Part shown: positions 12,030 through 64,000 of the stretch, piece by piece
How positions within the stretch are numbered: the first letter of the stretch is position 1
Layout: every line of letters starts with the position of its first letter
Origin: Kalmusia sp. IMI 367209
Lineage: Eukaryota; Ascomycota; Dothideomycetes; Pleosporales; Didymosphaeriaceae
DNA length: 64,000 nt
Assembly (NCBI GenBank): GCA_027946365.1
Contig: JAPEUQ010000014.1
Span: 1,054,001 to 1,118,000, forward strand
Direction of reading: 5' to 3'
Made by a program: the position numbers and the translations under genes
The notes under the pieces: model-generated
What the model saw: only the letters and a program-made list of their open reading frames with translations
What the model was told of the DNA's origin: nothing
Database searches by the model: none

Positions 12030-12071
12030 GCTCTTCCGGGGCAATGGCTAGAACTTAGTTCCCGGAAGAGC
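12030..12071. repeat. Perfect 11-bp inverted repeat
   Basis: GCTCTTCCGGG at 12030-12040 is the exact reverse complement of CCCGGAAGAGC at 12061-12071, with a 20-base loop. It lies 200 bp beyond the 3' end of the monooxygenase gene and just past the candidate microprotein. It could form an RNA hairpin in either transcript's 3' region, or be a regulator-binding palindrome. Confidence 0.7.
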
Positions 12072-12273
12072 TTGTTTAGGAGTAATGTGGGGTGGAGAGG
12101 AGCTGAAGAGGACTGATTGACAGGACGTGTAAGATACGGCAGATCAAGATGGATGTATGAGTATGGAATTGGCGTTGTGCGCTTCTTGAGCACAGCAACA
12201 ACGCCTTATAATGATCGTAACGCATTTCTATTTACTTGGCTTTCTATCAATACAAACTTCTCTTTACTTTCCT

Positions 12274-36049: not shown

Positions 36050-36287
36050 CACACGAAGAACACGATAACGCTGAGCACAAGAGAGGGTTGCACTTTTACG
36101 AAGCCATTACTGAGCCCTTACCCCCTTTTTGTGTTTTTAACAACGCCTTTACTTTATCTATACATCTATTAAGGAATACATCAGGTTAAATATTTTCAGC
36201 GAAAGCCTTTCTAGATTCTAAAGCCCTTGACTAGATAAAACACTCCACTACTAACTCTAATTCGTCAACACAACTATCAGGTATGGT

Positions 36288-37900: not shown

Positions 37901-37984
37901 AGGATGGGGTTTTAACAAAACAAATGACCTTAGTAGCCCTCAGACCTTTGACATGAAGAGATGGCCATATCTGACCCTTCTAGG

Positions 37985-40404: not shown

Positions 40405-42275
40405 ATGCGCGCGAAACCCGATCAGTCGCGCTGGCCAACATTCATCCTCCATGTTCCCGATTGGACTATCCACCGCTTCGCTGACAAGGAAAAGACTTAT
40501 GGGATGACAAAATTGGAGCATGGAGATATGGTGTTATTCCCTATGCCTGGGGTAAATGGTACGACAAAGAGAAGTGGTATAGCAGCGATAAAGACATGGC
40601 TAGTAGCTATAAAGACATGTTTAGGGTCATCCACAACGTGGAATATCTTACGTTTGCAGCCACAATCGACTAGCAAGATCGATGGGTTTTCCCGTTTTTG
40701 AAAAATGCCAATGAAAAGAATGTTCCTCCATTCACTATCGAGGAGAAGAAGACAGCTATCAAAGCCTTGGGGCAAAGGTATGTCTGGTGGGACTGGGCCT
40801 GTAACGTACAAGGCAATAACCTCGAGAGAGCATTGGAACAGTACGGCGCGAATAGAGCTACAGCACGAGCTGTACTGCAGTCAATTGAGGTAAATAAGAT
40901 GCGAGACGTCTATTCATATTCCGTCGGCGGGTTTCTCTGGCTCCATGAAATGTCATGGACCAGCAATAGTAAACAAAAGGAGGTAGCGTTCGATACGCAC
41001 TTGACTTGGTCACGAAGATGCGTGGTCGACAGGTCCCGCGGAGTTTGAAGTCGGTCGAGGAATTTTACAATCAGCTTGTTTATATGCAGAAAACGCAGGC
41101 TAGCTTGGTCTCCGTGTGGTCGTTCTAGGACGGAATTTGTCTCCATCGTCCAGAGCGTATACTTCCCAACGGCGCGACGCGAATACCTATTTTTGATCAT
41201 AAAGGCAATCCTATACCAAGCTTACTAACGATGGGGGTGCCTCTGGCGATTACGTTGAAGACAGTGCGAATTTTGCGACTAGCATTGTCGGTGAAAATGC
41301 GGATGCGCTGCAGCGGAAGGCTCTCGAGATACCCGAAGTGAGCGCTACTCCTTTCGCAGAATGTTGTTACAAGGACGGACCCAAAGCGCGTGAACTAATG
41401 AGCAAGATGATTGGTAAGTGCAAGCCTGGCTAAGCTAAAATTCTCTGACCACTATAGCGACGGGGTTCACGTCTTACCACTACGACAACCCTCTTGGACT
41501 GTTGGTATCCAAGTGGGCACGCTCACTGGCATCAGAGAAATGAAGTAGTGAATCTGATAGGACGGCACGTGCGCTCATCGGTGCCCTGGCCGTGGACATG
41601 GGTACCCAGGTTTTGCTAGACACTGCGAAGGCAAAGCAAGACGTCGTGGTGAACATGGACCCTAACTCAAGTCAGGAGTCAAAAGACCAAGAAGGTGATA
41701 AGGCTGAATGTAAAGTGTTCAAACTCGCATTTCGAAGGCATTGATTGCTGGTTATAGCTGGCGGATGCTGCTGCATGCAAGAGGTGGAGATACATTCAAA
41801 GCATCAAAAAACACATGGTGGACGCAATTTACGGAAGCGCCGTGGCCTACGCCAACCTTGAACAGTAGGACCGCCCTGGAACTGTCGCTTACACGAAGCT
41901 CGATTCTACTGAATTGGCGCAGCCAAATGGCAAACTTGGTAGCAGAATGGTGCTCCTTCCTTTTGAGAAATGCGGAGCCACACGCAATCCCGTTCGCGTG
42001 GCCCGCACTCGCTGCTTTATCCTTTCCGACTTTGACGACTCCAAAGCTATACGCACCGCCAATATCCGCGACGTGGGGAAATTTGAAACTTTGTACGAAA
42101 GCGCTTTGATTCCGTTCGACAAGGATCTCGAAATCTCGAAATCGAGTACCTATCCCTAGAGCTGCTAGCGTTCGTACCGCTTAATGACGATGAAGCAGTG
42201 CAAGAGATGGGCTTTTCTTATATGATACGAAAGTCGAATTCAGAACAGAGTTTAGCTAATTCTTGTGGCGTTGTC
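40405..42275 (+). pseudogene. HET-like protein gene, multiply broken
   Basis: The start reads FILHVPDWTIHRFADKEK. After a one-base shift in a run of four A (40509-40512) it continues GAWRYGVIPYAWGKWYD and RYVWWDWACNVQGNN, a variant of the HET-domain blocks (aLSYxWG and WxDxxCIxQ), then VGGFLWLHEMSW. In-frame TAG codons occur at 40671, 41126 and 41866, each explained by one C-to-T change in CAG. Later blocks are FYNQLVYMQKTQASLVSVW, a GT-AG intron at about 41414-41458, DTAKAKQDVVVNMDPNS and LLPFEKCGATRNPVR. The length suggests a former protein of 550-600 residues. The HET relation is judged from the spacing of aromatic motifs and is moderate; gene decay is certain. Confidence 0.6.
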
Positions 42276-43772: not shown

Positions 43773-44165
43773 GTCTGAGAGGTTTGCAGCAAACCAGGCA
43801 AGGCTGAGAGAAGTTCGCCGTTTTCACCAGGGGAAATGGAGACTATATGAAAAGCCCCGCGGGACGGTTTGGTTTCGCAGCCTGATTGCATTTTCTAGCC
43901 TGCCAAGACGAGACAATCGAAAGATGACGGACGTTGATAGGCTCAGACGGAGAAGGCTGCGGCGCAAACCCGATGCAGCCCCCAAAAGGTCCGAATACGG
44001 ACGAATAGCAGGCTTAGATGGGAAAGGGATCTCCACGGGCACCAGCCAGCGTGCTTCAGCATTGCGGACCTTACTGCACGTAAGCAGGAGGCGTCCATAT
44101 TAAAGGTACGCCCGTACGTTACCCGTGCCGCAAGATTTATCGTCTATTACGCCCGAGGCTACCTC
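43773..44165. other. Intergenic
   Basis: Probable promoter of the Mid2-like gene. The plus-strand frame at 43666-44103 overlaps that gene's signal-peptide exon and is not credible. Confidence 0.45.
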
Positions 44166-46392
44166 TTACCCACGGAAGTTTTCGACAGCCCGCTTCCATA
44201 CCTTATTCAAAACTAGAAGCATATTCTTTGTGTAAAACATCTTACACTCCGCTTCCTCCCACACAAACTGCAATGGAATCTCCACCCTTCCTGACCGCGT
44301 TGCGCCCATTCGTACTGATGACCGCCGGATCAGCGAGTGCGGCTGCAACAGCCACTCTGTTCCGCACATTTGGCAGATCTTAGGCCAACTTCGCGAGACC
44401 AGAGGTATTGAAGGCTGCGATATCGGACACTGAAGAATTGGAAATAAGCTCGCCTGCAAACTTGGCCCAAGGACCTAGCTGGAAGAATCCAAGCTGGAGT
44501 GCACCTTTTATAACCGTTGGAGCGGTGACGGGATTCTTGTGCGGAGCGTGGATAATGGTAATGGTATGTATATCAGCGGTTGTGTAGAGATATTCGTGGA
44601 AGATCGCCCAAGAAGAGGCGCATGCATAGTCCTCAAGCTTACTTCGCGTTAGTTTTGTCAAACAATAGAATGGCGCGTGTCAAGAACTTACAATTACAAT
44701 GTTTTCTGTGGTGAAGGGTTGATACATTGTCACATTCGTGTTGCTTAGATAATCCAAAATTGACAGACCACCACCGTAGCCTTGGATCTGCTCGTCATTG
44801 AGCTACTGATAGGTGAGAAAAACGAAGGAAACTGGTTCCGGAGCTAGATCTAGGATATACATTATCGTAAAAGGTTTGGGTGAAGTTGGCGTAATCGTGT
44901 TGTAGCGGCCCGAACATTACACCGAAGTCTTTATAGAACCACCCGTTTCTTAAGGCATATAGTGTGGTCTGCCATGTGATCTGCCATGTACAACTGAACT
45001 CTATAGTATTAATACCTTGTTAATTCCTCCCTCTTTCAGATGGCCCACCTCGAGGTATTTGTCCACGATATAGCCGAGTTCATGGTACATTTCATTGACG
45101 GAAAGGTTAAGACCAAGCGAAGGCTCAAGGGCAGGAAACAATTGCTTGAAGATGTCGGTAGTGACGCAGCTATATCCGCCTCCTTTGCTTCGCAAATCCA
45201 TTATAAGCCTCTTCTCCCCCTGCACCTTGCTTTTAGAAATGAACTTGCGAACCACAGCCGAGAATTCGAGGGGGCGACCATAATCAAGGGACGAGTCTAA
45301 AGCTGAAAGCGTCAAGGACGGGACCACAAATGTAGGAATCGTAAGAACCGCAACATCGTCGTATCCCGTATCATTGAGGTAGTAGCCCGAGATTGCATCA
45401 CAAGAGTGCTTAATACTGAATACGGGTAGCTAGTAAGTGTTGGTGGACGTTGCGACATTATCGAAGAAGGCCCGCCACTGGTCGGGGTCGCGGTCGAAGA
45501 TTTGAGTGTTTCTTCCGCTGAGCCGGTACGAGATTAGTCGAAAAAAGCCTCGCCGCTATGCACACCAACAAAGTCTTTTGGAACGATTGTGATATCCGCA
45601 AATGTTCTAGTCGTGCCATTTGCGTAAGCAAACTATGTTGGTCCATCGTACATGCCTGAGGAATAAACCTATGAGCATTCTCGTCACTGATCGCAAGACC
45701 AGCAGGGGGTCACGAAGCTGGAGCTGTACCTAGCGTCGTCATCGGAAAAGCCAGCGTTCTTAGTGAAATGTTGCAAGTACTTGACGGGATCGATCCTATT
45801 AATGCATTCGATTGGTGTGGGCTCATAACCGGAGCCGTTCGAGGCGCGAATAACATCTGAGTAACTGTATATTTTCGGCAGGGCCCTGTCCGTCCTCAGA
45901 TACCTCTACAAGTTGAGTGTCCGGATCTCTCGTGAAACATAGAACGTTTGCCAAGATGTAAGCTGCAAGCATAAGATGAGAATTATGGGTCGAGCGAATG
46001 AACTCAAATATGTTGGACTAACGTTATATTCATCTGTATAACCCCATCTGTATAGCCTCCAGCCCCTAGTTTGCTTTTGATGTAGAGCCCTTTCAGGAAA
46101 TTAACAGGTCATAGCTCCGAGCCAGGTGGAGGATTTTTGTGATGCCGGAGCGTCGGTTGCTATTGTAAGTAGAATCTTCGTCGATCAGATCCGAGTCGCC
46201 CTTCTAGTCCACTGGAACAGTCATGAGACAATCATAGGCAAGTTTTGCTGGAGCAGCAATGGCGGGACACTTTTGACCTATGAATTGATCGCTAAGTGCT
46301 GCGCATGGCTCAGTGAGCGGAGTTGGAGATGAGCATACAGGTACAAAAGTTATTGCAGTAGTGAGGACGTGGTGAGATATGGTCTGCAGCAT
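44166..46392 (-). pseudogene. S41-family (tail-specific type) peptidase gene, broken
   Basis: The ATG at 46392 opens a signal peptide (MLQTISHHVLTTAITFVPV) and the family's N-terminal PCAALSDQFIGQ block, soon stopped by TAG at 46204 (within LMTVPVD-KGDSDLID). Further blocks are FADITIVPKDFVGVHSGEAF, a shift at a run of six A at 45541-45546 (T on the coding strand), YRLSGRNTQIFDRDPDQW, IMDLRSKGGGYSCV (the GGG core), YACASSWAIFHEYL where the catalytic Ser is retained, and the C-terminal VEIPLQFVWEEAECKMFYTK in yet another frame. The order and spacing follow fungal secreted S41 proteases of about 700 residues. With at least one nonsense codon and two shifts it is a pseudogene. Confidence 0.7.
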
Positions 46393-47101
46393 AGATAAGG
46401 ACAGATATGCAAAGTGGAGAGGTTAGCTAGATTTGATGTGAGATATTTTGCACCTGAAATCGTATATTTCTATATTCTGCTTACAATACATTTATTCCAA
46501 ACGCGTAATAAGGCTTGAAGCTGATAAGAAGCCCGCAATCTTCGTCATGCTGTCGAAGCAATGAGGCTTTCTGCGGAAATAGCTTGATCTAAAATTATAG
46601 TCATTATATGATTAGTGTAATTGGCGGCTGAGATGAGATTTCTTATTGCAGTCCATATCTGCGGCACCCCCTTACCTGCTGTCTGCTGCTGATCTGCTAG
46701 CACGCGTAGGGATCTTTTCGATGACCTCATTATTTCTTTTGAACAGTGTATATGTGCGATGAAAAGATTCAGGGTAGGAACGGTGTTCAGCTATTGAAAC
46801 AAGCGGCAGTGTTGCCAAACGGAGAAGATGAGAGAGGCGGTGATTGCTTATGTGACGTTCTGTGGCTCAAAGCGGTTTAGGCTCGCAAATGCGCACCTAA
46901 GCTGTTAAAAACTCCACACGTCAGTCATCCTGGCGCGATATCCCTGCTGCGACAATCTTGCTTATGATATTCTGTCAGCTGAGCATGTCGCACATGTCGT
47001 CCCAGATATCAACTCAAAGGTCCTGCGAGGCGCAACATCGCATATGATACCTCAAAGTGGCAATATCTATCTAACAATCATTTATACTTGTGAGGGTTTT
47101 C
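46393..47101. other. Spacer between relic belt and terpene cluster
   Basis: Divergent interval between the S41 relic and the first cluster regulator. No coding frame is supported. It marks the left boundary of the intact gene set. Confidence 0.5.
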
Positions 47102-48852
47102 ATGGCGAGAACCAAGACAAGCGGTCGATGCGACAAGTGTAGGCAGCGGAAGGTGAGAGTACGTTGATACCCATAGGATACTAAAATGATTGCATACATT
47201 TAACGGTGTTACAGTGCGATGAAAAATGGCCGGTATGCGGACAATGTTTGAAAGGTCAAAGAAACTGCGGCGGTCCACCAAAGAAAGATATATTATTCGC
47301 CGAGCCGAGAAACGAATCATCCTTTGGGCAAACCAGGGGTGCAGTTCAACCCATCTTGCAAGCGTCGAAGTCTTCCACAAGCAGCCAAAGAAACGATGAC
47401 GGCAGGAATCTATACATGATGACACTGTCTTCCAATAAGCTTCATAATGGTGTAGAAATGAAGAAGTTCCGCCTGCTTGAGTTAGAAACCAAGGGTACTT
47501 CGTACAGCAGACACGCACGAAAGATGGCCCCCTTACGTCCTAGCTTATCACTATCATCCAACGAGAGGCTATCTACTAGGCTGCATTCTGCGTTAGACTT
47601 CGCCACTAACGCAAAGATACACAGCCATGGAATGGTTCTCCGAGAGCTTCTCGGTAGATTCGGGACTAGCGCAGCCTTGGATAACGCGACCCTATGTTTG
47701 CTGTCATCGCATGAAGCCGTTGTACGAGGGGATGACATATCCGCCTGTTTCGATACGAGGCAGTATGTAAAAGCCCTTCGTAGCATACAACGAGCCATAA
47801 ATAATCCCGCTGATCAGTATTCGACAACCACATTGGCCGCTATATCAGTCATGTGGAGACTTGAATCCACCTTCTATCGCATCAATGGCATGAAAACCAG
47901 TAACCAGGATGTACATGGCCGCGCTATGGCAAAATTCTTGGTGCGACGCGGGCTTCCCGATGGATCGGACCCTCTGGAGTTTCTTCTCTTTGTAGAGTGT
48001 GTCGTCGGCGACGTACAAGCCAGTCTGATGGCCATTCGACCTTCAACATTCGACACGCCAGAATGGGCAGCTGCATTTGCACGTTTGAAAAGTCGCAATA
48101 TTGTGTCAAATCTGCACTGGCAACTAATGCGAGCGTTCGTCGAATGGCCTGGTTTTAGACACGATATCATAGCACTCAGAGCCACACCAGAAGACCGTAC
48201 AGGCTTAGCTAACAGTATCCTGAGGCGCCTCATTGCTACTGCTGCCCGACTTGAGGTTATTTCGTGCACTCTAGTATGGCTGCTATCCGAGCCACAGGTG
48301 TGCGCGACCATTTCCTCGTCTTTCGGTGATCCTCTCGTTCCAATGGTATACCACTTCAAAAACGTTGACGTTGCCGTGGTTGCAGCCTACCACTGCTTTT
48401 ACAGCGTCATGGTTTATGGGATGATCGAGTCTGTGAACGGTCAGCTCCCCAAATCACGACAAGATGGTGACGCACCAACACTGCTGGCATATTATACTCC
48501 AGATCCTCCAGCGCCTGGTACTAGTAGACTCTTCACTTTATCAGAACATTTCAGTTTCCCGCTTCCCGCCTCTTTTCTCACCCGTCTTGGCCTCGAAAGC
48601 ATGAAACTGAGCCGAAGGGTCTGGATGATGTACGAGCAAGTACAAATCTGGAAGCCGATTGGTTGTCTCTTCTTCTTGAATGCTCTGAAAGCGACGTACC
48701 CGTGGGCGGACACTGTAGCCCTGAAAGAATGGGTGTTGCTAGCCACAAACAATATTGAGGACTTTCTGCCTGTGGAAAGCCGGTGGACACATGAAACTGT
48801 TGAAATTTGGTGCAAAGCTTGGATTGGCGAGTCTGTGGAGGATGTAGCGTGA
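47102..48852 (+). CDS. Zn2Cys6 transcription factor (cluster regulator candidate)
   Basis: Two exons (47102-47158, 47215-48852) give 564 residues. The intron splits the zinc cluster: RCDKCRQRKVR joins CDEKWPVCGQCLKGQRNC, giving C-x2-C-x6-C-x6-C-x2-C-x6-C at residues 10-39. The alternative donor seven bases upstream would remove the conserved Val-Arg before the third Cys and was rejected. The rest fits the fungal-specific regulatory domain, including LLGRFGTSAALDNATLCLL and YVKALRSIQRAINNP. It binds DNA in the nucleus. Its place at the left edge of the terpene cluster suggests it controls it, but such regulators can also sit beside clusters by chance. Confidence 0.9.
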
Positions 48853-49459
48853 TCATACACGTGTCGATTTCTGATTGCGACTTAAAACATGTATAAAAAC
48901 TCTCATTACTCGTTAGGCTATAGATTATGATTATATGAATAGTTAAAGTATATTATCTTTAGCTGGTCATGTTTTTTTATTCCATTTAAGTTAGAGTAGT
49001 TTGGTAGTTACCTTAAGCTCAACATCATGTCGTAATTCAACGATAATTATCTATAATATCATCTCAACGGAAGATCACATTCAATGTGTTCAATGAATGA
49101 ACTGATGAACACAAGATGCAGGGCTTGTGGTACCATGGCGCCGCGGCCAGGCAACAGAGACTGAGAGACACCTACTAGTTCACTATGATACGCGTAGTCT
49201 ACACGCGTTCATCCCTAACCCTTCACATTAACTGCAGACGCGTAAATAAAGAAGGCTGCTAAAATGAACGCAATAGACCAATTAGTACAGCTTCTTCGAA
49301 AGCCATCGCCCCGAATATATCCTGATCAGAGCTGATTTTCAACTCAACAGTAATTTAATATTCAGGGTAGGCATATGATGAGCGTATGTAGGCAGGAGAT
49401 ACAGCATTGATATACAATGTAGATTTATATGAACGGTTAGATTACCTAATCAACTTCTA
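48853..49459. other. AT-rich convergent 3' region
   Basis: Three-prime flanks of the regulator and the first P450, which converge here. AT-rich with no frame of note. Confidence 0.55.
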
Positions 49460-51273
49460 CTATGTGTGCCGCTTGCGCATTCGAATCTTCACATCGCGAT
49501 TCGGAATCATTTGAATCTCAGCATTCAGATTCGGAGGTCTGTTTTTCTGGTTTTTGCAATATTTGAAGTCGTATGTCACAAGAAGATGCGCCATAATTAG
49601 CTTGATCTCGTAATCTGCAAACCAACGTCCTGGGCAGGCATGTTTTCCGTAACCGAACGCCATGTTGTCCAGATTTGCAGAAGCAAATTTAGTGCGGCCG
49701 GCAGCAGCTGGATCATTTTCAACTGCTTGCAGCATCTTTTCGTGTCGCCACGCATCGAATTGATCCGGATTAGGATAAAGTTCTGGATTCATAGATAATG
49801 CTTGCGATGGTGAGCCAACGAACGTCCCAGAGGGAATGCGAAAGCCATCGGAGAGGGTAAGGTCCTTGGTGATGATGCGTTGGAATGTCACTACAGCGTG
49901 TAAACAGAGCCCTAGTTTGGTATTAGGGTGTGTCGCTTACCTAGAAGCAGAGGGTTGAAACGAAGACTTTCTTTCATAAAGGAATCTAGCTTTCGCATCT
50001 TGCCAAAGGCGCGCTTATCTAGTGTCGGGTGTTCCCTCATTACCTGTTCTACTTCCTCCCGCAGAGGTTGGATGTATTCCGGATGTTCACATAGGTCACA
50101 CACCAGTTGCATCGGAGATGCAGCGCTAGTATGTAGGGCAGCAAAGCTGATTTTGAGCAAGATTTCTGCAAGAAACTCAGGACTCTCCTCGCCAGGCTGC
50201 GCGTCATCAATCATCCACTGAAGAAAGTCGCTTGGCTTGCTTGTAGTCCTTTGGCCGAACGGCTTCTTGGGATCGTACCCACGAGCGTCGAGAATGCTTT
50301 GCACTACTTTCTTGACTGCTTCATGATGCTTGGGTATCCGCCGCAACTCCATGATAAATGGGGCTACCAGCGGTCGGATAAATTCGGGATACTGTTTGAT
50401 CTTTTGTGCGCCGACAAAACCGTCCATGGCAAAGCCCTGAGTAGCGTGCAGCCATGAGGCATCATTAGCAAGTGCTTTACCGCCAAACATTCTACTCGAA
50501 GCACGAGCAACAATCCAAGTGATCTTCTCAGCAAATGGAACCTGTATCCAATCTATGTGCATTAGCCAGCGTTGTGCGCTTCGGTCACATCAGATTCATA
50601 CCTTGCCCGACCTTCACCTCATCTTCGAAAGTTTGAATTATCTCGTCCCGTACGGGCTGTAAAATGAATTCTATCAAAATGAGCCGAAATTATTTTCGCA
50701 TCAACGTCAGTGCACGTACCCATATACTGGTTCAGTTGCAACCGGGTAACCCGTGGATGTAGTAGCGACCGACTACCCATAGTCGTGTACTTCCCTTCAA
50801 ACATCTTCGCTCCATTAGTCCATCTTGGTCAATACCCAATCCCGATCGGGCCTTGCAAACCTCGAAGAAAGTTCCCACAAAGTCTACATCGCTCATTGGA
50901 GCAGCCTTGAGCTCCTCCACGTACTTGGAGGGAATCATGAGGCGTTCTCCAAGCGGCGTCGGTACGTAAAAAGGTGTGTCTTTGAACTTCGATCATTTAA
51001 CGGAGTTTGGGTTCATTTTTTCAGGGTTCTCACCTTTCTGTAGCCTTCAAGAAGCATGCTTTGCGCATCGCTGTAGAACCTCTTTCTTGCATCCTTCAGT
51101 TTACCCCCTGGAGGAACGCCTACAATTGGAACTGAAGGATTCTTGCGAACTCTGTTCTGGAACACATATTGTATAAGCGGAATTGCCCACAGAAGAATGC
51201 CTAGATACAGAGCTGTTTTGCTGACACGCCCTTGTAAGAAGCTTAAAGAATTAGAGAGTTGTATTTTAATCAT
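49460..51273 (-). CDS. Cytochrome P450 (gibberellin-pathway-type)
   Basis: Membrane-anchored haem monooxygenase of about 530 residues from six exons, all with canonical introns; early exons are 51273-51034, 50986-50861 and 50804-50720. The N-terminus has an anchor helix (TALYLGILLWAIPLIQYVF) and a short proline-containing linker. The I-helix is FAALHTSAASPMQ, with His-Thr in place of the common Glu/Asp-Thr; P450s of the fungal gibberellin type share this. The K-helix ExxR is ESLRFNP, and the haem loop FGYGKHACPGR has the Cys ligand. It is the next gene but one to the sesquiterpene synthase on the same strand, so oxidation of the terpene skeleton is the likely job. Position and stereochemistry are unknown. 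Confidence 0.9.
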
Positions 51274-52042
51274 TTTAAGAAGGTAAGGCGGTGCAGACCT
51301 GTCTGGAAGATCAAGTCAATCGTTAATGAAGAGGAAAGTACTTTCTCATCTTCACATTTGCCTATTTGCTCGTATTCAAATTTGACCGGATCAGGTTACC
51401 AGAATATACGACTCCTAAAAAGGAAATACAACTGTTTTGACCGATCAATACGAAAATACGGAGTCCAGTCCGAGCATGTTGGGTTGTTAGGGTATAGAAC
51501 CGGGGTCCGGCACACTTCGGCGCTTACCCAAAAAGGTAACTTGCGCCCGGAACATATCATTATGCTGTGGGGGTCTGGACTGTATGTCAAAATTAAAAAA
51601 GTTCCCCGAGACCCGAGACCATTATCCAATTAACGTTACATCAACTGGATCACGGAGACATGATTATATCTATGAAGTAGGCCGAGATCTATAATCTGTC
51701 CAGACCCAGTAACCTACCCAACAGGGCTTCAATCTACGTGGAACCCCCACGGTCGCTTAAAGAATGCATCGATAGACTAAAATGGCAATTCTGTAGGTGA
51801 ACACGATGTATATGGAGGGAACGTATGATCTACATACTCATAGTTGATTACGGGAATAGGACTAGTATGATATTTGATTCGATTGTTTCGAAGAAGAAGA
51901 GAAATGAAGAATAAATATCAGAGACTCTGTGAAGTATATCGAGCAATCTAGGAAACTCTAACCCTTGTAAGGCTAAGATGCGCAAGAAAAAAAAATAGAT
52001 CGATCCTCCCGCGCCCCATCAACTCTACATGACCGGCAGACC
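51274..52042. other. Intergenic, P450 promoter side
   Basis: Contains the P450 promoter and the 3' end of the synthase. The plus-strand frame at 51259-51633 has no motif. AT-rich from 51780 to 52010. Confidence 0.5.
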
Positions 52043-53152
52043 CTATGCGGGTTGGCCGATCGTGGCTAAGCAATTACTCTTCTGTTCCTGATTACTGTCG
52101 AATTTCCGTTTGTTAGTCATCTCGCTTCGGTATCGATGCGTTGTCTTGCTCCAATGCTCGTTGCCGCTCATCTGATACTCTAACCCCTCCACGTAGCGCC
52201 TTAGATCACCCTTTAGCTCTAGTCCCGGAAGCGAGGAGTTCATTCGTGAAAAGAGCTTCACATGTGTGTGCTCACATTCTCGGATCATAATCCACAACAC
52301 GTTCTTCGCTGCTTCGATAGTGATACCTACTTGATCTGCGAGGATCTGGACAGCGTTACACAAAATTGCTCCTTCACTGTTCTCTTTCTCTGCGATACGA
52401 CGCTCTTTTTCGTAGCTATAAATATCGTTCACGAGGGATATGTGTCGGCCGCAGTTCCTTTCAATGTCGGACATAAGGGCGAGCTCGCGAGGGGAAAGGT
52501 GCAGTTTGTACGAAAATCTCATGAGTGCGGCCAGTAATCTAATTTGTCAGCGATCATGAATCATAGGGATAAGGGCGGACGTACGCTTGACCAACGTCAT
52601 CCTGTCGGTATTGAAGGTAATCATGCAGACTATCAATGGAGAGTCGCTCCTTTGCAGTTTGGGCCCTCATGAAGACAAAGACAGGCTCGACAACTTCCTC
52701 AGCAAGCTGACGGTCGATTATACGCATCTCTTCCCAAAGGTCATGCATCATCCACTCCACGGGATTGTTTCGATCTGGCTGGAGTACTCCTGTGCAGAAA
52801 GGCATCAAACTGTTGTTATACGCCTTACCCTCTTCAAGGGACAGGTACTCGAGTTGATCTGCCCACTGTTAGAACGACTCCGGCCAACTAGACCACCGAA
52901 CTGACCATCGACTAGGAATAAGATCGTGATCAATTTGCAGGCTGACCTAATCCGCTCTGGTAGAGCCTTAGGAAAGTATAGACATGTAACTCGAGAGAAG
53001 CCCGCAGCGACGAATTTGTCTCTTGACTTTTGATCTGAAAAGTTCCAGTTGTTCAGAAACCATGAATCGACATCGTGAACTGCACTAGCAGCGTCTGGGT
53101 GGGAAGTCTCTGTAAATAAGCCTTTTGTTTCGGTTGTTTGGATTCCCATCAT
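52043..53152 (-). CDS. Class I sesquiterpene synthase
   Basis: Cyclises farnesyl diphosphate (inferred) to a sesquiterpene. Three exons (53152-52906, 52858-52585, 52538-52043) give 338 residues, normal for fungal class I synthases. The Asp-rich metal site LFLVDDQLEYL is formed across the first intron (GAT G / AT CAA). The second metal site is NDIYSYEKE, an exact N-D-x-x-S-x-x-x-E. The pyrophosphate-sensor Arg lies in SDIERNCGRHIS, and the C-terminal H-R-Y sequence (THRYRSE) completes the RY pair. The region before the first metal site (FVAAGFSRVTCLYFPKAL) is strongly like that of longiborneol/sativene-type synthases (CLM1 group) as I recall them, so a bridged product is plausible but unproven. 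It is divergent from the FAD oxidase gene, sharing a 443-bp promoter region. Confidence 0.92.
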
Positions 53153-53595
53153 CAAATCGGGTGATCAGTGTTTTCGGTGTTGAGTACACATACGATCGAA
53201 AGCCGTCTTCATGTCTTGCTTATGTCTAGTGAATTGGAATATGCCGCCAGTAATAATCATGGCCACAGCAGTAGCCACAAACTGCTCTAGTCAAAAAAGG
53301 GAACTTCTCAGTCCGAGCCACTGGGGTATCTGTCCGGGTAGATGCCGATGTGGGGATGCATACCCAGTATTTGATCACTGCATCGTCCAAGCTCTTGGAA
53401 GTCCGGTAAGGTGCATGGAAGATACGCTTATACGCCTATATTGGCAATACCCGGAGATTTGATTAATTTACGAACGGGTATCAATGAGGACAGTGTAGAA
53501 ATCCGGGCAGGGTTAATAACCCCAGAGGGGCGTGACGTTCAATTGGAAGGTAGAGGGCACTCCACTCTGCCAACCATCCATCCGCTGAAAAGACA
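53153..53595. promoter_or_regulatory. Shared divergent promoter of terpene synthase and FAD oxidase
   Basis: The 443 bp between the two start codons must hold both promoters, which is the usual arrangement for co-regulated cluster genes. I found no unmistakable regulator site by eye. Plus-strand frames reaching into it are upstream extensions of the oxidase frame with no motif before the signal peptide at 53596. Confidence 0.6.
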
Positions 53596-55135
53596 ATGCA
53601 GATCTTGTACCAACTTTGCTTGGCTGCGCTTGTTGTTGCTGGATCTCGTCTCGAGAAAAGAGCGGGGTCGGGATGCCAGCGTCTGGCATCCAAGTTCTCA
53701 GGCCAGATCTCGTATCCCAATTCGGCAAACTACGCAAACGAAACTGCATGTACGTATTTGCTTCCATTGTTGTAATGTGGCACGTGCAGCTAACATTGAC
53801 CCTTTAGCGTATTGGACGAAAAATGTACAGCTACAACCACTCTGTGTCTTCACACCGCGTGGTGTAGAAGACATTGCTGCTGCAGTCCCAATACTGAAAT
53901 CCACCAAGACACATTTTGCTGTGCGAGGGAATGGCCACATGACTGTTAAAGGCGCTGCCTCTACTTCAAACGGCGTACTTATCGTCTTGACCAAATTTCG
54001 AGAGCTAGTCATCTCTGCTGATCGTAATACTGCTAGCATCGGGCCTGGTATAACCTGGCTCGAAGTGTATCAATGGGTGCAGAAGCACGACCGCACTATC
54101 GTTGGTGGGAGGTACGGTCCTGTAGGTGTGTCTGGATTGCTTCTAGGTGGAGGCATCAGTTTCCACAGTGGACAGTACGGCTGGGCAGCAAACAGCGTCG
54201 TGGCATACGAGGTTGTCACCGCGGATGGCAGGATACTTCAAGCAAGCAAAAAAACCAATTCGGATCTGTTTTGGGCACTCAAGGGGGGCAGCAGCAACTT
54301 TGGTATCGTCACTCGTTTTGACGTCCAGACGCACCCCACTGGGCAGATCTACGGTGGCATATTTTCGTGGAATGCGTCCAATGTCCACCAAGCCGTCGAT
54401 GCTCTCGCGGCTTTCGCCGCGCCCGGTGGCGGCATCGATGATCCAAAGGTTGCTCTGCTTCCAAACATTGCCATCGACCCTGCTTCTGGCATTCAGAGTG
54501 CTTCCATCTTCGGCTTCTACGATGGAGTAGACGACACCATCCTCCAAAATTTTACAAACTCTGCTCTAGCCACGACCGCGAAGATTCGGACATATGCGGA
54601 CTTCATAGCTGAAGGGTCCGCAGGCGGAGCAAGGGGAAACTTCCGCGGCGCATTCCACTGTGCAAGCTTCAAGGCTTCTGCCCAAACAGTGAAGATGATT
54701 CACGAAACCGTTACGAAAGATGCCATCAAAAACTTGGCCAAGGTACCCGGTGTATTCGTCGCACTCTCCATCCAGCCCCTTGGGAAGAGTTGGTTAAAGG
54801 CAGCGCAAAAAGCTGGGGGAGACGCTATCGACATTGATCCATCCAACGGCAACCTCATTGTGCTGAATCTTGTCATCCAGTGGGCTGATGCTGCCGACGA
54901 TGCTAAGATCGCCGACTGGGCTAACAGCATTCTAACGAAATTGGGAAAGCAGGCCGCTACCCTTGGTTTGAATTTCCCTTTTGTCTATATCAACGATGCT
55001 CAAGCGGGTGCACAGCCCTTCCAGTATTACGGAGGAGGAAAGAGCCTTTCGAAGTTGCTTCAAACAAGGAGAAAATACGATCCACAGGGAGTGTTTCAGG
55101 ATCTTATGCCTGGGGGTTTCAAGCTGGGCAAGTAA
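53596..55135 (+). CDS. Secreted FAD-linked oxidase (berberine-bridge-enzyme-like)
   Basis: Two exons (53596-53749, 53808-55135) give 493 residues. The ATG at 53596 opens a signal peptide (MQILYQLCLAALVVAGS) followed by SRLEKRAGSG, a Kex2-type Lys-Arg processing site; longer upstream frames lack either feature. The intron joins NETA to SYWTKNVQLQP, restoring the family's start-of-domain sequence. The flavin-binding PCMH domain shows FAVRGNGHMT, whose His is the usual 8-alpha attachment point, and GGRYGPVGVSGLLLGGGISF. The second Cys attachment found in bicovalent members is Tyr here. The end has the family's berberine-bridge signature region (RRKYDPQGVFQ). In sesquiterpene clusters such enzymes oxidise alcohols; secretion implies a late step. 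The substrate is inferred only from context. Confidence 0.92.
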
Positions 55136-55375
55136 ACATATGTTATCAATCATGTAGCTATATATGTATTCGTGATTTCAAAATGCAATCTACACAATTG
55201 CATCATGTAGTGAGCGCTTTCGCCCGTCAATATTCGCTCTTCAGGTAATTATATATGTCCATGTCGCTAAAATGTAATGTTCATATTGTATCTACTACCA
55301 TGGACGATCTATCAAAGACTGTGGAACCAAATACAAATAATCAGATAATACTATATGAAAATATTCTCAATTAAT

Positions 55376-56429
55376 TTACCATGCTCGACCGCTCACGCCA
55401 AAATCTCGGAAATCTGTAACCGCCTGTTGCTGATTCTGCAAACGTAAATTCTCCTCCCCGAACCACTGCGGTCTCAAATCAGCCAGCTTCTCCTCTAACT
55501 CGGTGTACATATCGCCTAATGTCAATATGACCCTTCCGTTCCATCGGCCTGCCTTGTAAAGATTCTCCAATGGCTCCTTACCATAGATGTCTACTTTTCT
55601 CGTTTGCGTTGCAACGGCAGAGTAGACCAACGCTGCCCCAACATGGCGAGCTGAGCTCACTGGTAATCCCATTTCCTTGATTGGACCCAGGAAGTCATCT
55701 CCTACGAGCGCGGTCTCGGTGCATGCTGGCACCACAGCATTGATGGTGATGTCGTCCTGGGCGAGGTTGTGTCGGAGCGAGCGGATTAGACCGACTAAGG
55801 CCAGTTTGAGGGCGCTATAGACTGGAAGCGATTGCTCGGGCGAGTAGGCTGTGGAGGACGAGGTAATGACTATGGAACCTCGTGTTGTGTCTCGTTTGAA
55901 ACTATGATGGGCGAGCTTGATGACATTGAGTACGGACTTTAGATTGACATCAACCAGGGGATAAGCAGGCTCTGCAAGCTGGTTCAGAACCTCGTCACGC
56001 GTTATACTAGTATTGCTCTTCATCTCTTCTTCCAGGGTATCAGCGAGGAAATTTTCGTTCTCTGAGATGCCCGCATTGGCAAAGACGTAGTCTACGTGAC
56101 CGACCTTGGCAAATATGCCCCTAAGAGTCTTCCAGTGCGTGACATCACATTGGTGGAATATAATGCGCTCGGACAGTGGGCTGTGGACTGGAGGAAAGGA
56201 TGCCGTAGCTGAAGGAGGATGTCGGTCTAGAATGTGCACAGTCGCATCTTTAGTGGCAAGAAGCTTTGCCGCGGCGAACCCGATGCCTGATGCTCCACCT
56301 ACATGAGAGTCAGCGAGCGCATGCGGCATGCACGGCCGAACAGGGATCGGGAACAATGTTACCTGTTATCAAGGCTACCTTTCCTGATAGCGCAGGAATG
56401 GCCGTTTCGTCGATAATGAGCGAAGTCAT
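55376..56429 (-). CDS. Short-chain dehydrogenase/reductase 1
   Basis: NAD(P)-dependent classical SDR of 329 residues from two exons (56429-56363, 56298-55376). The intron falls inside the cofactor motif, joining GKVALITG to GASGIGFAAAKLLA to give T-G-G-x-S-G-I-G. The acidic HILDRHP at the end of the second strand favours NAD. Also seen are FANAGI, the catalytic Ser in VITSSSTAYS and YSALK (Y-x3-K). The C-terminal 50 residues, ending GVSGRAW, are longer than minimal SDRs. It converges with the FAD oxidase (240 bp between stops). A role in interconverting alcohol and ketone on the terpene is expected. Confidence 0.9.
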
Positions 56430-56698
56430 GAGGTGAAAAGGCACTAGTGAACGCGACAATATTGGACCATCAGGCGTGATAGCTGACGATGGTGGGTTGA
56501 AAAGACGTATGTAATTCGTGGCGAGGTTGGTGTTCGCTAACTATTAACTACGACGGGGTGCGTCCGCACGTAATTCGTACGCGAACACGGATGGCGCCAT
56601 TCGGCAATTCCGTCTTTAGGCAGGTAACGCACTCGCATTCAATCCGAAAAACCTCCGCCTTCGACGCCGATTATCGAACCACTCCAGGTAATCTTCCT

Positions 56699-58542
56699 TT
56701 ACGCACTAGACGTGTTCTCACGAGCGTATATTCGCATTGGAAGCGCAGGTTTTTGCCACAGCGTATGCATGCGAGACTTCCCATGCCAATCTAACGTCGT
56801 ATCCACAAGTTCAAGATCAAACTTGAAATGCAGCTTTGCCAATGTTGTCCGCATCTCCATCCATCCGAGGCTGAGCATCTGTCAGTGACTGCCTAAGAAG
56901 AGTGAGAGAGACGTGTCGTACCTCCGGCCGAGACAGCCTCGGGGACCGGTGGAAAACGGTTGACTTGCTTCATAATTGTCGTAGCCATTGTGCTCAATCC
57001 AACGTTCAGGTTTGAAATCAAGCGGATCCTTGAAATTCGTGGGGTCCAAACACGCCGCGATCGGACTGGTCGATACAATCACCTTCGGGTTGGTTAGCTA
57101 AGCAGTATTTGCATCTAGCGACAGGGACAAACTGCCCCTGGTGGAAGAAAATGACCGTTGATTTCATTCCCGTTCTCGGATACAACGCGCGGCAAAGCGA
57201 TTGGGAGTGGTGGATATATCCTCATGCCTTCCTGACACACCGCATTGAGATATGTCAACGGAGCCGTCGAGGCTGAATCTATCTCTTGAAATGACCCGAA
57301 GGTGCCACGAATTTCCTGCTGTAACTTCTCAAGCACGTTCTTGTTCCGCGACAGATAGTATGTGATGCATGACAATGCAGTGGCCGTCGTCTCGCTTCCA
57401 GCCGTCACGAAGTCTGCCGAGTGGGCGGCTATTTGAACATCTGAGATGGACTCGTCGCGCTGCTCGAGAATTCGAGTGAGGAAATCCTTGCGTTCCGATT
57501 TCCGTGCGACGCGTTTCTTTACAAGATCCAACGAATACTCTTCGTTGAGCTTGCAATCCAATTTAATGCGTTCAACGGCCCAGGAAAGGAACACCATAGC
57601 GATTTTTGCGAGACTAGGGAACCGCTTAAACGTGTCAGCTAGAGCACCTTGTTTCATGGCGCCCGTGATTCGTGCGATCCAAGGGTGCACCGTCCCTGTA
57701 GCTCAAACTTCAACAAAGGCTAGAATCTGTTTTCGCAAGGTTTGACTAACCTGAATCTATACCCTTGAATGATTCTCCAAATGCGAGTTCCCCAATGATA
57801 TCGAAAGTCATCATGTTAAACCATTCCGTGAAATCAATCACTGCCGCATCCTTGGCCTTGGCGTCGAGAATCCGCATGAATTGGTCGATAACTCCGGAGA
57901 TTATCGGTTCTTGTTCGATGAGGCTACGTTGTGAGAATGCATTCGAAAGGAAACGACGCATTTGCCCGTGTTTATCTGGGTCTCGCTCCGAAACAATCGA
58001 CCCGCATTGGTCTGCAAATGTACCCCCTTCGTAGAAATCCGACTTGATGAGCGAGCGCTTGCCAGGTCCATTGGAGTCGTAGATATCCTTCCATGACTGG
58101 GCATTATTGAATGATAGCTCATTCGGCGCGATTCGTACTACCGAACCTGAAGATTACTAATTTAATGATTCTCCTTGTGAGTATCCTAGATTTCGCGATG
58201 TTTACTAACCGTATTCTTGGTGCAAGGTAAGAACATTATAAGGGTGGCGACCGCCCAGAAAACTAAGACAGTAGTTCAACTGAGGTAAATTTAAGTTAGC
58301 ATGTGGTGCAGCATGTGGTGAGAAATCGAATGATCAAAGGACTTGCATTGCTTGCAGCGTTTAGAACCGGACCTGGGAACTTTGAGAGGCGATGGAAGTA
58401 GACATTATAAATTCCCTTAAACAAAAAACAGCTCAATACCTATTCCCTGGCCGTGTTAGCTGTGCTTAGGGGCATGTAAAGAAAGTCATACGCAGACGAC
58501 AAGGCTGGCAATAGCTAGCCCTGTATCATTCGTTCTGGACAT
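56699..58542 (-). CDS. Cytochrome P450 (CYP65-like)
   Basis: About eight exons give roughly 500 residues. The N-terminus MSRTNDTGLAIASLVVC joins VLSCFLFKGIYNVYFHRLSK, an anchor helix and linker, then FPGPVLNAASN and HQEYGSVVRIAPNELSF. The I-helix is ADFVTAGSETTATAL, the ExxR is EGMRIYPPLP, and the haem loop is FSTGPRGCLGRR. The last junction uses the acceptor after ATGCTC, giving GRSLGWMEMRTTLAKLHFKF. The intron after AASN has a GC donor (GCAAGT) rather than GT; using the GT one codon later breaks the frame. The opening sequence and motifs resemble the CYP65 group, which hydroxylates trichothecenes and other terpenoids. It is likely the second hydroxylase of the cluster. Confidence 0.88.
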
Positions 58543-59006
58543 GTTGCCGTATTCGAATCAGCGAATGCAGTTGAAGTAATTTTGCTAGTTTGTTGATGTT
58601 TTGCAAAACCAAGAATATGACCGAACGGTTTATAACTTGTGCAGGTTGGCGTATGGTGAACATGTGGGGTTCGATCGGAATTTGCCGATTTAGGCGGATT
58701 AGCGGAAATGTCGTACAAGAGCTATTGGCACATTACACATCGAAAAGTTTCACCAAAGGAGTGGAGGACTGTATTGTATATCTCAGGGTAGCCCCGCCCA
58801 TAATGTGTCTCCAAACCTTTGAAGAGGTGCTAAAAGCGGTATCTTTTCAATCGATAAGATGCATAGTGGTACTGCAAAATTGGAAAGTGCACAAAAAACG
58901 AATATAGGCAATCACAGCAGTTTACAAGCTGTAGAGTGATATGTTATTTAGAAATGTGGTGTAGGTACGTAATTCTTCTGTATGACTCCGGCTTCGTTGA
59001 CTAGAG
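58543..59006. other. Intergenic
   Basis: Promoter of the second P450 and 3' flank of the second SDR. A 105-residue plus-strand frame at 58590-58907 has no motif and lies among same-strand cluster genes in the other direction. Confidence 0.5.
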
Positions 59007-60146
59007 TTACTTGGAACCGAAAGACTCTCCTACAACCTTCTCGCTCCAGTTCCATAGCTTCAGCGCCTCACCTTTATCATTCGCGTAGGAAAGAACCGGG
59101 ATGATATTCGATTCCTTGAGGAATGCGGGCGCGCTGGCTCTCAGACTTGGGTCAAGAACGGCGCGAAGCTGGGTTGCGACGCCCTGCTGCATGGAGACGA
59201 GCACCGTCTTGGGAACCTGCTGGCCCTTCATCCGCTCAGCGGCAATCTTGAAGCCTTCGGCAAGAAATTCCTCATCTACTGCACTATTCACAAGCAACTG
59301 GCTGTCGTGAGCCACTGTTCTAGCGATCAGCTTCATGCATATAATTGTCCTCGGAGATATATCTTACTTCCCGGATCGGCCACAAGGGATACAAGTTTTC
59401 CACCGTACTTCTCCGCAAGTGCCCAGGTGAAAAGGATGTTTGCCGTCTTTGAGCGACCATAAGCTACCCATGCACTATAGTTTTTGCCCTCCTATACGGC
59501 TGTCAGCTGGATCTTCAGCGAGATGCTCGGCATGATGCTACATTAAAGTTGGGGTCGTCCGTGCTAGCTTCCGCTAGCGTATAGGCCATGCTAGCCACGT
59601 TGAGGACAATACCATGAGATGCGATAATCTTGGCAGCTAGGAGGTTCGTCAAGAGGAAATGGCCAAGGTAGTTGGCAGCAAGATGAGCTTCGACGCCGTC
59701 ATTGGAAAGGGAAAAGTCCCTCTTTGCAGCAACACCAGCATTGTTGATGAGCACGTCAATGCTATCCACAAGAGCATCAATCTCAGCGGCGGCTTTGCGG
59801 ACTGAGGCAATGTCGAGGAGATTGAGGGCTACAAAGGTTGTTCTGATGTTTGGATTGAGTTCTCGGATCTGCTCGATCACCGGGTTGATCTTGGCTTCGT
59901 TTCGGCCTGCGAGGACGAAATGGGCCGACTTGGCCTTGGCTAGGGTCACCAGCAGCTCAGCGCCCAATCCTCCTGCACTCGGGCCAGTGATGACGACTGT
60001 GTTTTCGTATAAGCGTGACCCTGCATAGCGAGACAGCGAATAGGGAGGCTAAAGGCGCCCAAGTACATACCCGTTTTACCGTCGGCGTTGGCACCGAATT
60101 CGGCCACAATCTGCTCACCTGTTGTCTCGATGTTGAACGGGGCCAT
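59007..60146 (-). CDS. Short-chain dehydrogenase/reductase 2 (retinol-dehydrogenase-like)
   Basis: Four exons give about 330 residues. The start is MAPFNIETTGEQIVAEFG. Exon 1 (60146-60071) joins SRLYENTVVITGPSAGGLGA, whose T-G-x-S-x-G-G-L-G is an SDR cofactor motif with one extra residue. The NADP-favouring LAGRNEAKI, INNAGV, and the catalytic YGRSK (Y-x3-K, in SAWVAYGRSKTANI) follow. The last intron runs from GTAAGAT after GATCCGGGA to the acceptor before TGGCTCAC, giving DPGMAHDSQLLV; other acceptors hit stops. The C-terminal QQGVATQLRAVLDPSL is typical of retinol-dehydrogenase-like fungal SDRs. It is tandem with the CYP65-like P450, so the two may act in succession. Confidence 0.88.
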
Positions 60147-60389
60147 AGTTGGAGTTTGCTACCCGGTGATTAGACGTTGTACTAAAAATGCGATGGCGAC
60201 GAACATTATAACAAGCAGCACTCTCGCCATTGGGGCATTTGTAATACGCTATAGGCCTCAGCGTTGCGGCGCAGCACCTCGACCGGGTAAACGCCGACGC
60301 CGACGCCCACGCTGACGGTGCCGCAACAATGGAATCTTTGAAAGCGCAGGCCTACATTGACCGTCCCTCTGGAATCTACTACAAACGAT

Positions 60390-61501
60390 TTACTGTACAC
60401 TGTGTAACCTGCCAGGGACGCGGAATTTGACCATCTGCATCCGCACATCGCTGTCCAGATCCAGGACCATGGCCATGTGCCTGGTGAGCCCCTGCGCCCT
60501 GCATCGACTCGACAAACCGCCCAGCAACCTTTTCCACCTCTCTAGATGAAAAGATGCAAGACTGCTCAGCACAAGCAGCGTTTCCTCGGACGATGCGTCG
60601 TACTCGCCAACCCGCACTTTGTCCCCAGCCGACGCCTGTGGCCTGAGCTTCTCCGCAAGCTTGCCGTACGACCGCACCGCCTTTTCGCAGATCTGTATCA
60701 TCAACATCAGAAATGGGGAGGCCATGCTGCAAGACTGGCAAGTGAACAGATCGGTGCACATATTCAGCGTACGCTTCCTGGCGCGCAGCTCGTGGCTTGT
60801 CGAGTAGGATCTTGTCTCGTATACATCTAGCGCGAGCATTTCCAGCAAAGATACAGCGACAGAAATGCACTGGCAAGGCGCCGATGCTGTCGAGATGCGT
60901 CTGTCATCTAGGAGCAAGTCATCTGCTGCAAGCGTGCTGTGCGCCTGGGGCATGTCGTCAGAGGCGCCCAGCAGTGCTTCCAAGTCGTTGTGTGCGAATG
61001 TCTGTTCATCTACAAAACTCTCGAAACCATCTAGAGCCCAGGAGACAGATGTGGGTGGACTACAAATGGCCGTCGTTACCTCTGTTGTTGTCAGGGCGCG
61101 CCCGTCCTCGCTTCTCCCTGTCGTATCTCGCAGAAGCTCCTCATACATCGTGGGGTCCAGTGTCGCAGTTTCTGTCGATGACAGCGGTGAAGGTAGAACC
61201 GAATTATCGGTACGGCTCGTCCGTGGCGTTGGGTCTTTGTGCGCTCTACTCCTCCTTCGACCCGTCGACTCTGAATATTCACATTTGGCTTGGTGTTGCA
61301 CACATCGGCGGCAGCCCGTCGCCTCTCCCGTGCACTTGAGCTATGTCATGCATCAGGCATTCGTCGAAGATAAAAGGGATATAATCAGCGTGCGCCACCA
61401 ACCTTCTTTGCACGGCACGTATTGCAGGCCGAAAAGCTAGCATGCCCACTTGCGCGCTCCACGAGCAGCGAGTTGTGCTGTGTGCGTAGTGTTGCGAACA
61501 T
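60390..61501 (-). CDS. AflR-like Zn2Cys6 transcription factor
   Basis: Two exons (61501-61403, 61340-60390) give 349 residues. The intron again splits the zinc cluster: SFSACNTCRAKK joins LKCTGEATGCRRCVQHQAKC, a perfect C-x2-C-x6-C-x6-C-x2-C-x6-C. The acceptor four bases later would drop Leu-Lys and break the spacing. CEYSES right after the last Cys is the same as in AflR-type regulators, as are the Ser/Thr-rich middle and the C-terminal Cys-containing domain (LFTCQSCSMASPFLMLMIQI). The ATG at 61501 gives a 20-residue lead before the cluster. AflR-type proteins activate secondary-metabolite genes, so this is the stronger of the two regulators as cluster-specific activator. Confidence 0.88.
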
Positions 61502-62095
61502 TGCACGATGCGATACGGGCAGTAATTGATGCTCTACGATAAACTATTTACCGATAATGAAAACTCTCCATAGATCCATCTAACCAGTTCCGGGGGCGTG
61601 GACTGCAGGAAGGCCCCCAAGTCCGCTGCAGGCTGCAAACACTCGCAGGCAATAGCCCCCAACGGACATCTTTAAAGTTGCATATGCTGGGGGGATATAT
61701 GTATAAATCTGCCGCGCCTGCTTCGCATTAGCTCCAATAGTCTGTATATACGTACCAAAGATACTTATGCACCAATGCAGTAAGTCCCGAGCGCGCCGAC
61801 TCAAAATCCGAATACCGAGTTATCAGTTGCCTCGCAAGACCCCTGCAACCATGTGCCTTGCCCCACACCTACTCTGCGGCCTCTGATGTGAGCCGTTTCA
61901 TTTACTAATTCCTGCAGAATGACTTTTTGTAAAAGGCATCGTAGAGCTACCCATGAGTCTGTCCAAAACGGGCCGAGGATTTACATGCCCGAGAAGGAGT
62001 GAAAACAAGGCCGGTTGGCGCGGTCGTTTTCACAACCCATAGCTACCTTCCTCGTTCTCTGTATTCCGATATCCCAACACTGTTACTCGTTCAAC
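61502..62095. promoter_or_regulatory. Divergent promoter of AflR-like regulator and PTH11-like protein
   Basis: A 594-bp interval between divergent start codons. TATATATG-like sequence occurs near 61690-61750. No coding frame is supported. Confidence 0.45.
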
Positions 62096-63369
62096 ATGAC
62101 TTCGTCTACATCAGCTACGGAACCGACACCCGAGGAGCAGGCCTTCTTACAGTATCAGATGTCGGTCAAAGATCAGACACGACAGCCTGCTTTCTATACT
62201 ACTGTCGCTGTGTGTATGTTCCTTGGATATGCTTCTATTGTCCTACGACTTCTCGCCAGGCGGAAAAAGGGACAAAAGTTGAAGGCTGACGACTGGTGGA
62301 TCATTGGAGCTCTTGTACGGTGCACGATATTGACTGGCCTAGGATCTTTACTGACCATGTGTTAGCTACCTGTCAGTGTTTGGGATGCTTTCAACTTCTG
62401 GTCCATCTATACCGGGCTGGGTCTCCACATCATCCGCGTCACGAATCCTAAAGCCTTGATTCAATCGGCAGTGGGTTGCATGATCCTATACCCAATGTGT
62501 CTGCCTCCCATCAAGTACTCCATTCTGTTCCTCTACCAGCGATTCTTCCCTTCCAAAATGATCAGAATCTTTAGCATTACCATCGCTGCCATCGTGACTT
62601 CAATGGCCATTGCAGCGTCCGTTTCGTTTGCACTCCAATGCATCCCTTTGTCGAGCTTGTGGGCCGGGACACATGGGAAGTGTATCGAGCTGAACAAGCT
62701 CGCGATAGCGACTGGGTAAAAGCCGAATAACGGAACCGGCGAGATGTTCTTACTGACAAAAATATAGAATTGTTAACATCGTTACCGACGTGGCAATCCT
62801 CGCGTTGCCCATTCAGCCACTAATCCATCTGAAAGCCTCATTCAGAGTGCGACTTGGTTTGATTGCAACGTTTCTGCTCGGAGGCTGTGTATGCGTTTTT
62901 AGTATAATTCGCACTAAGATTGTTGTGCAATCTAGCCAAGCCGATCCTAGCTGTACGTTAACCTAAAATATGTCATATCGTTTTGCAGAGCTAAAGCCTC
63001 GCAGGGAACAATGCCATCGGTGGTATGTGGTCTGTTATTGAAGTGCACGTCGCCATAGTCAGTGCCAACCTGCCGGTTCTCAAGCCCCTGTTCATGAAGC
63101 ACGAGCCAGAAACGTCTGCTTCGTATGCCAGGCCAATAATAAAGTCATCTGGATACATCCGCTCCGAAGACTCCAATGGGACCTCAAAAAAAAGCAAACG
63201 TAGAGGTCCATACTCTATCACGAACGGCTCCTTGTGGAAAGATGACGATGAAGTCCCGCTTCAGGACATTGAGCATGGAGTGCAGACTATCTCCAAGCAA
63301 ACGCAGTTTGAAGTGCATAGCGTAAAGGAAGAGCAAGAGAAAAGCCAGCAGACTGAAAGGGTTTTCTGA
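62096..63369 (+). CDS. PTH11-like seven-helix membrane protein
   Basis: Four exons (62096-62314, 62366-62715, 62768-62952, 63005-63369) join in frame to 372 residues. The last acceptor is the AG just before GGAAC, which restores PSWNNAIGGMWSVIEVHVA; nearer AGs give stops. Helices are visible at FYTTVAVCMFLGYASIVLRL, LKADDWWIIGAL, MILYPMCLPPIKYSILFLYQ, IFSITIAAIVTSMAIAASVS, IVTDVAILALPIQPL, LGLIATFLLGGCVCVFSI and the last at SVIEVHVAIVSANLP. The family is the fungal rhodopsin/PTH11-like group. The cytosolic tail of about 90 residues is charged. It is divergent from the AflR-like regulator, so it may belong to the cluster (sensing or self-protection is speculative) or mark its edge. Confidence 0.87.
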
Positions 63370-64000
63370 GTCTAGGTTGGTATTCACGTTGCTTTGTTTT
63401 TCACGTCACTGTAGGTTTTTTTTTTTTTGGCTATATCACAATTCATTATCGCGTTTGAAGCCAAGTGTAACTATAATATGCTCACAATATATTAATCAGC
63501 AGCTTTTGATTCGATTGATCAGAAGCTATTCCAAGTGCAGATTCTAATTTCCGAAGTGTCCCTAAGAAGTGCCTTTGAAATTATGTATGAGACTCGTTGT
63601 ATCGCTCATGCAGTGAGCCAGTCTTGATTGAAGGGAAATTGAGATTGATTATCTGCTATGTTATGGAAATATCTTAATTTACTCTAAACTGATTGTAACG
63701 TATAAGCTTGTTGAACGAAAATGCGAAAGCGACTACTTGCGGATCCGTTAGCCCCCTAGCACCACCAGCACGGCAAGCTCAAACAGGTATATCCCGACCA
63801 AATTTCCGGTAATCGGTCTCGCCAATGCTTCGACGCACTATGCACCTTCAATTTAATGTAGGAATGGCTCTGAGGTAGTCCTATGCGAACAGCAGTTTCC
63901 AGGTTTTGTGAATTCTACAATGATTCTCGAGCAGCTCAGAGCGCAAATTCTTACCACACTAGGTCAAGATACCGTACTCCTATTAATCGCTCTAGTTAGT
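63370..64000. other. AT-rich intergenic end of window
   Basis: Starts with a T10-type run at 63417-63428 after the membrane-protein gene, likely its 3' region. AT-rich to about 63720. No gene seen. Confidence 0.5.

Follow-up and report, generated by a model that had tools for sequence, protein, structure and literature searches.

Is the run of genes towards the downstream end of this stretch of DNA a single biosynthetic cluster, and which kind of sesquiterpenoid would it make? The window, by which we mean the whole stretch of 64,000 nucleotides analysed here (contig 6, 1054001-1118000), belongs to a genome of 42.8 Mb in 30 contigs that is fungal by its gene structure and content. Gene models were rebuilt with introns, the splice sites being chosen by us from the sequence. 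An earlier note had described nine intact neighbouring genes at 47102-63369, and they were found with these ends: each becomes one open frame once introns of 46 to 74 nt are spliced out, and each protein matches a Pfam family above the cut-off (P450b was scanned as an earlier model of 496 residues). Along the run come a regulator (TF1, 564 aa), a cytochrome P450 (P450a, 520 aa), the sesquiterpene synthase (337 aa), a FAD oxidase (493 aa), a short-chain dehydrogenase (SDR1, 329 aa), a further P450 (P450b, 501 aa), SDR2 (320 aa), TF2 (349 aa) and a PTH11-like protein (372 aa). Gene models and Pfam thus agree with the note on the synthase, the two SDRs, the FAD oxidase, the two Zn2Cys6 regulators and the PTH11-like protein. 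A motif scan of the models found the haem, nucleotide-binding and catalytic motifs of the run intact.

The run extends beyond 63369. An intact P450 gene of 7 exons, P450c (63920-65741, plus strand, of which 63920-64000 lie in the window), starts 550 bp after the PTH11-like gene and passes the end of the window by 1741 bases, as seen in the genome contig (L001). It encodes 501 residues that match PF00067 (E 3.1e-65) and is likely to be the tenth gene of the cluster. The P450a and P450b genes announced by the note do lie inside 47102-63369, but the run holds three P450 genes and not two. At least 104 P450 matches were counted in the genome (as exon pieces, with 92 of 319 candidates scored); about 0.045 P450s are expected per 18.64 kb, and the Poisson chance of three or more is about 1.5e-5, a rough figure, such genes clustering anyway. 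The gaps between genes measure 240 to 769 bp along the whole run, P450c included, and the tailoring oxidases and dehydrogenases that directly adjoin the synthase are intact, as judged by single open frames and Pfam. The ten open frames, the short gaps and the three P450s against 0.045 expected argue for a cluster, and a sesquiterpene cluster with two regulators, as first proposed, is supported. We give a probability of about 0.72 to the reading of 47102-65741 as an intact, single-locus cluster for an oxidised eremophilane-type sesquiterpenoid. The cluster is real and apparently intact, and its product is most likely an oxidised sesquiterpenoid derived from aristolochene, which would make the locus a complete, testable gene set for such a product.

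The nature of the product turns on the synthase. This gene (STS, 52043-53149, minus strand, 3 exons) encodes a class I sesquiterpene synthase of the aristolochene synthase type, matching PF19086 with an E value of 5.4e-23. When all solved structures were searched, its best match was the aristolochene synthase of Aspergillus terreus (4.5e-107, 361 bits), followed by that of Penicillium roqueforti (9.9e-93, 314 bits), whereas the next kind of enzyme reached only 75 bits. Among solved structures, then, verified aristolochene synthases resemble STS more than any other terpene synthase does; the comparison covers enzymes with solved structures, and a closer relative might exist among synthases for which there is only a sequence. 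The alignment with the known enzymes (A. terreus, PDB 4kux and 2oa6; P. roqueforti, 1dgp and 1di1) extends over residues 12-310, and 170 of 295 aligned residues are identical to the A. terreus chain (57.6%). STS keeps both metal-binding motifs of class I terpene synthases, DDxx(D/E) and NSE: the aspartate-rich motif DDQLE was found at residue 81 in the motif scan, and the second metal motif, NDIYSYEKE at residue 210, is unchanged relative to A. terreus. It also keeps the C-terminal RY, and all three residues altered in the variant PDB entries 5imi, 5imp and 5in8 are unreplaced here. The identity and the preserved metal motifs make an eremophilane skeleton likely, and this reading is favoured both by the fact that, among solved structures, only aristolochene synthases match STS strongly and by the unreplaced residues. 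The eremophilane skeleton is that of the PR-toxin and phomenone class.

Nevertheless, STS is not a copy of either known enzyme. The A. terreus and P. roqueforti proteins score 417 bits against each other, above the score of STS to either, so that STS sits somewhat outside that pair. It has DDQLE where A. terreus has DDLLE, and 27 C-terminal residues beyond the alignment, where the solved chain has 4. No terpene synthase NCBIfam model reached its cut-off for STS among the families shown, these models being bacterial or archaeal. The score of the known pair, the altered motif and the lack of an NCBIfam match weaken the eremophilane reading, as does the fact that 57.6% identity cannot fix the product of a terpene synthase. 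STS might instead have drifted to make another germacrene A-derived sesquiterpene, or an unrelated one, giving a different product class with the same tailoring logic. The modest identity and the DDQLE motif would be in keeping with such a drift, since a few residues are known to shift terpene synthase product specificity. Indeed, 8 of 37 compared positions differ from aristolochene synthase, but the other 29 are the same, in a rough check whose positions were picked from active-site numbers that may be shifted; moreover, the distance between 361 bits and the 75 bits of the runner-up enzyme class in the PDB speaks against it. We consider drift of this sort unlikely and retain aristolochene, or a close relative, as the probable first product.

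Elsewhere in the genome, 10 matches to PF19086 were found, including exon pieces and the window's own. The closest paralogue of STS, on contig 28 at about 519-520 kb, is 36-41% identical in two pieces; STS is therefore no recent duplicate. This second terpene synthase and pieces of a P450 gene occupy L009:8143-9086 and L009:3956-5208; the first piece of the synthase scores 20.6 bits against PF19086, under the cut-off of 23.7. The P450 pieces, 38-46% similar to P450b, are about 3-4 kb from it, and a Zn2Cys6-like motif can be seen by eye in a nearby frame (L009:1879-2469). This locus is possibly another terpene cluster.

P450a (49460-51273, minus strand, 6 exons) matches PF00067 over residues 227-505 (E 1.6e-40) and carries the motifs ESLR and FGYGKHACPG. 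Among long matches in the genome its nearest is 29% identical, and shorter pieces reach 42-44%. P450b (56699-58542, minus strand, 7 exons) matches the same family with an E value of 1.7e-68 on the earlier 496-residue model; the present model requires a GC-AG intron at 58280-58346, a rare but normal class. Solved structures include only distant P450s for both, the best being CYP51 for P450a (80 bits) and CYP3A5 for P450b (108 bits). P450b and P450c share 39.9% identity over 471 residues. In a genome search with P450b, two pieces of P450c match at 44 and 48% and one more at 25%, and the genome's other P450s reach 45-48% in pieces, which means that the closeness of P450b and P450c is not special. 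Since those other pieces match equally well, a recent tandem duplication giving rise to the two genes is unsupported.

The FAD oxidase gene (53596-55135, plus strand, 2 exons) shares with STS a divergent intergenic region of 446 bp (53150-53595). Its product matches PF01565 (FAD_binding_4, E 1.9e-26). By eye, a signal-like stretch and a KR site can be recognised at its N-terminus, the stretch being probably a signal, going by the family; the protein thus looks secreted, on sequence grounds. A motif scan found RGNGH, whose histidine presumably binds FAD covalently. FAD_binding_4 and this histidine are held in common with EncM and the berberine-bridge-like oxidases (PDB 6fyd, 9p1o), from which the enzyme is nonetheless distant: 117 bits over residues 31-233 for EncM and 105 bits over residues 32-483 for 9p1o. 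In the bicovalent berberine-bridge family a cysteine also binds the flavin, and this second, cysteinyl link appears, from a reading of the sequence, to be absent here. The best near-full-length match in the genome is 32% identical and has one internal stop, maybe an intron. SDR1 (55376-56429, minus strand, 2 exons) and SDR2 (59007-60146, minus strand, 4 exons) both match PF00106, with E values of 5.9e-36 and 2.3e-22; the former carries TGGASGIG and YSALK, the latter TGPSAGGLG and YGRSK. No NCBIfam model reached its cut-off among the best 25 of 196 matches for SDR1 or the best 25 of 147 for SDR2.

These enzymes suggest a route. Aristolochene synthases ionise farnesyl diphosphate, close it to germacrene A, reprotonate this intermediate and rearrange it to the eremophilane skeleton. 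By analogy, Mg2+ bound to DDQLE and NDIYSYEKE would let STS ionise farnesyl diphosphate, which the enzyme would close, via germacrene A, to aristolochene or a close relative. All three P450s might then hydroxylate or epoxidise the skeleton, the two SDRs might convert alcohols to ketones, and the secreted-looking FAD oxidase might carry out a late oxidation, probably outside the cytosol. TF1, TF2 or both would turn the cluster on. We infer the product, the order of the steps, the role of each oxidase and the regulation, everything past the synthase being deduced from enzyme class. The route sketched in the earlier note, with a cyclisation, two hydroxylations and several alcohol or ketone oxidations, holds in its outline, as the enzyme set fits cyclisation and several oxidations, but has to accommodate three P450s instead of two.

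Both putative regulators have a full six-cysteine motif. TF1 (47102-48852, plus strand, 2 exons) matches PF00172 with an E value of 1.9e-5 and TF2 (60390-61501, minus strand, 2 exons) with one of 8.5e-8. The C-terminal part of TF2 is weakly AflR-like (PF08493, E 0.003, 18 bits, under the cut-off of 24). AflR-type sites were tried and rejected: the 4584 bp of intergenic DNA contain no TCGN5CGA, where 0.87 would be expected. The pattern CGGN7CCG occurs 3 times in the same DNA against 0.62 expected, and is not counted as a signal because 15 patterns were tried and this one did best. No exact 4+4 dyad is shared by more than 4 of the 8 promoter regions, and the 25 random control sets give values of 3 to 5. 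No shared promoter motif beyond chance was found in the intergenic and promoter regions of the run, and Pfam recognised neither a transporter nor an acyl transferase among the ten gene models of 47102-65741; both results weaken the cluster reading.

The limits of the cluster are a related matter. Perhaps only a core made of P450a, the synthase, the FAD oxidase, SDR1 and P450b serves one pathway, and some or all of TF1, SDR2, TF2, the PTH11-like protein and P450c are chance neighbours. The want of a shared promoter motif would agree with this, as would the surroundings, where accessory genes abound (HET, glycosyl hydrolase 3, FMO, peroxidase). The PTH11-like gene (62096-63369, plus strand, 4 exons) encodes a membrane protein with a fungal rhodopsin domain (PF20684, E 5.1e-57); another PTH11-like gene is found upstream, at 34785-35591 of the window (fungal rhodopsin, E 1.7e-39), which weakens the case for the copy in the run, whose membership of the cluster is uncertain. 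The tight gaps of 240-769 bp along the run and the compatible functions of its genes argue, on the other hand, for more than a core. We hold the narrower version to be possible but doubtful; it is compatible with the best explanation, an eremophilane cluster, and concerns only its boundaries.

What lies on either side of the run was also considered. Immediately past P450c, on the other strand, a fungal peroxidase gene (L001:2127-3140; contig 6, 1120127-1121140) encodes a protein with a PF00141 match (E 3.6e-29) and, by eye, a signal-like N-terminus; it could be either a member of the cluster or a neighbour. Further downstream, L001:6600-7403 encodes an oxysterol-binding protein, and L001:9233-9625 holds the beginning of another P450. 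The note also speaks of an adjoining belt of broken genes. Nine upstream frames between 24543 and 45429 were searched one by one against Pfam at E 0.01; four are without a family and five have one (fungal rhodopsin, a TPP enzyme in two parts, DUF6914 and a weak S41 peptidase). The thiamine-pyrophosphate-dependent enzyme is spread over two overlapping frames (29681-31167, minus strand), through an intron or damage. Still farther upstream, all five frames scanned at 1171-20522 match Pfam: two with glycosyl hydrolase 3, one FMO-like and two with the heterokaryon-incompatibility (HET) domain, the last at window positions 8690-10672 and 18921-20522. The idea that the upstream belt consists of transposons was rejected, as each of the two parts covered by the single-copy test, 36000-42000 and 44000-47000, has no genomic match other than itself. 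RIP damage was likewise rejected, the composite index being negative in all 37 of the 2-kb windows that cover the window and L001. Neither direct nor inverted repeats of at least 60 bases (seed 14) exist in the window, and Rfam at gathering thresholds and a tRNA scan returned nothing there.

How does the locus compare with clusters already described? The earlier remark that its gene content could not be equated with any of them goes too far where kind is concerned: the synthase groups with the aristolochene synthases, and this kind of cluster is already well known, nothing unheard of. The rDNA spacer region looks like that of Pleosporales and suggests a host lineage remote from the Aspergillus and Penicillium species that supplied the solved enzymes. 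One counterpart is the PR-toxin cluster of P. roqueforti and P. chrysogenum, which likewise combines several P450s, SDRs and a FAD oxidase with a synthase of the aristolochene type. This likeness of synthase and tailoring classes could be taken to mean that the locus is the PR-toxin cluster itself, or is directly orthologous to some other aristolochene cluster already published. PR toxin biosynthesis, however, includes an acetylation step and an acyl transferase gene, whereas no acyl transferase was recognised in our ten models, nor in the 4 Pfam-scanned frames from the next 10 kb; the two Zn2Cys6 genes and the PTH11-like gene, for their part, are not known from the PR-toxin cluster. Such an identity is very improbable. 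It is conceivable, as a tentative extension of the eremophilane reading that we do not favour, that the product is an eremophilane whose oxidation pattern would be new, owed to three P450s and a secreted FAD oxidase, unacylated, and under two Zn2Cys6 regulators. Other fungal eremophilanes, such as phomenone, sporogen AO-1 and the peribysins, would need the same kinds of enzymes: a synthase, hydroxylases and alcohol dehydrogenases. A comparison of this locus with the known clusters would separate the tailoring steps that run through the whole class from those added locally.
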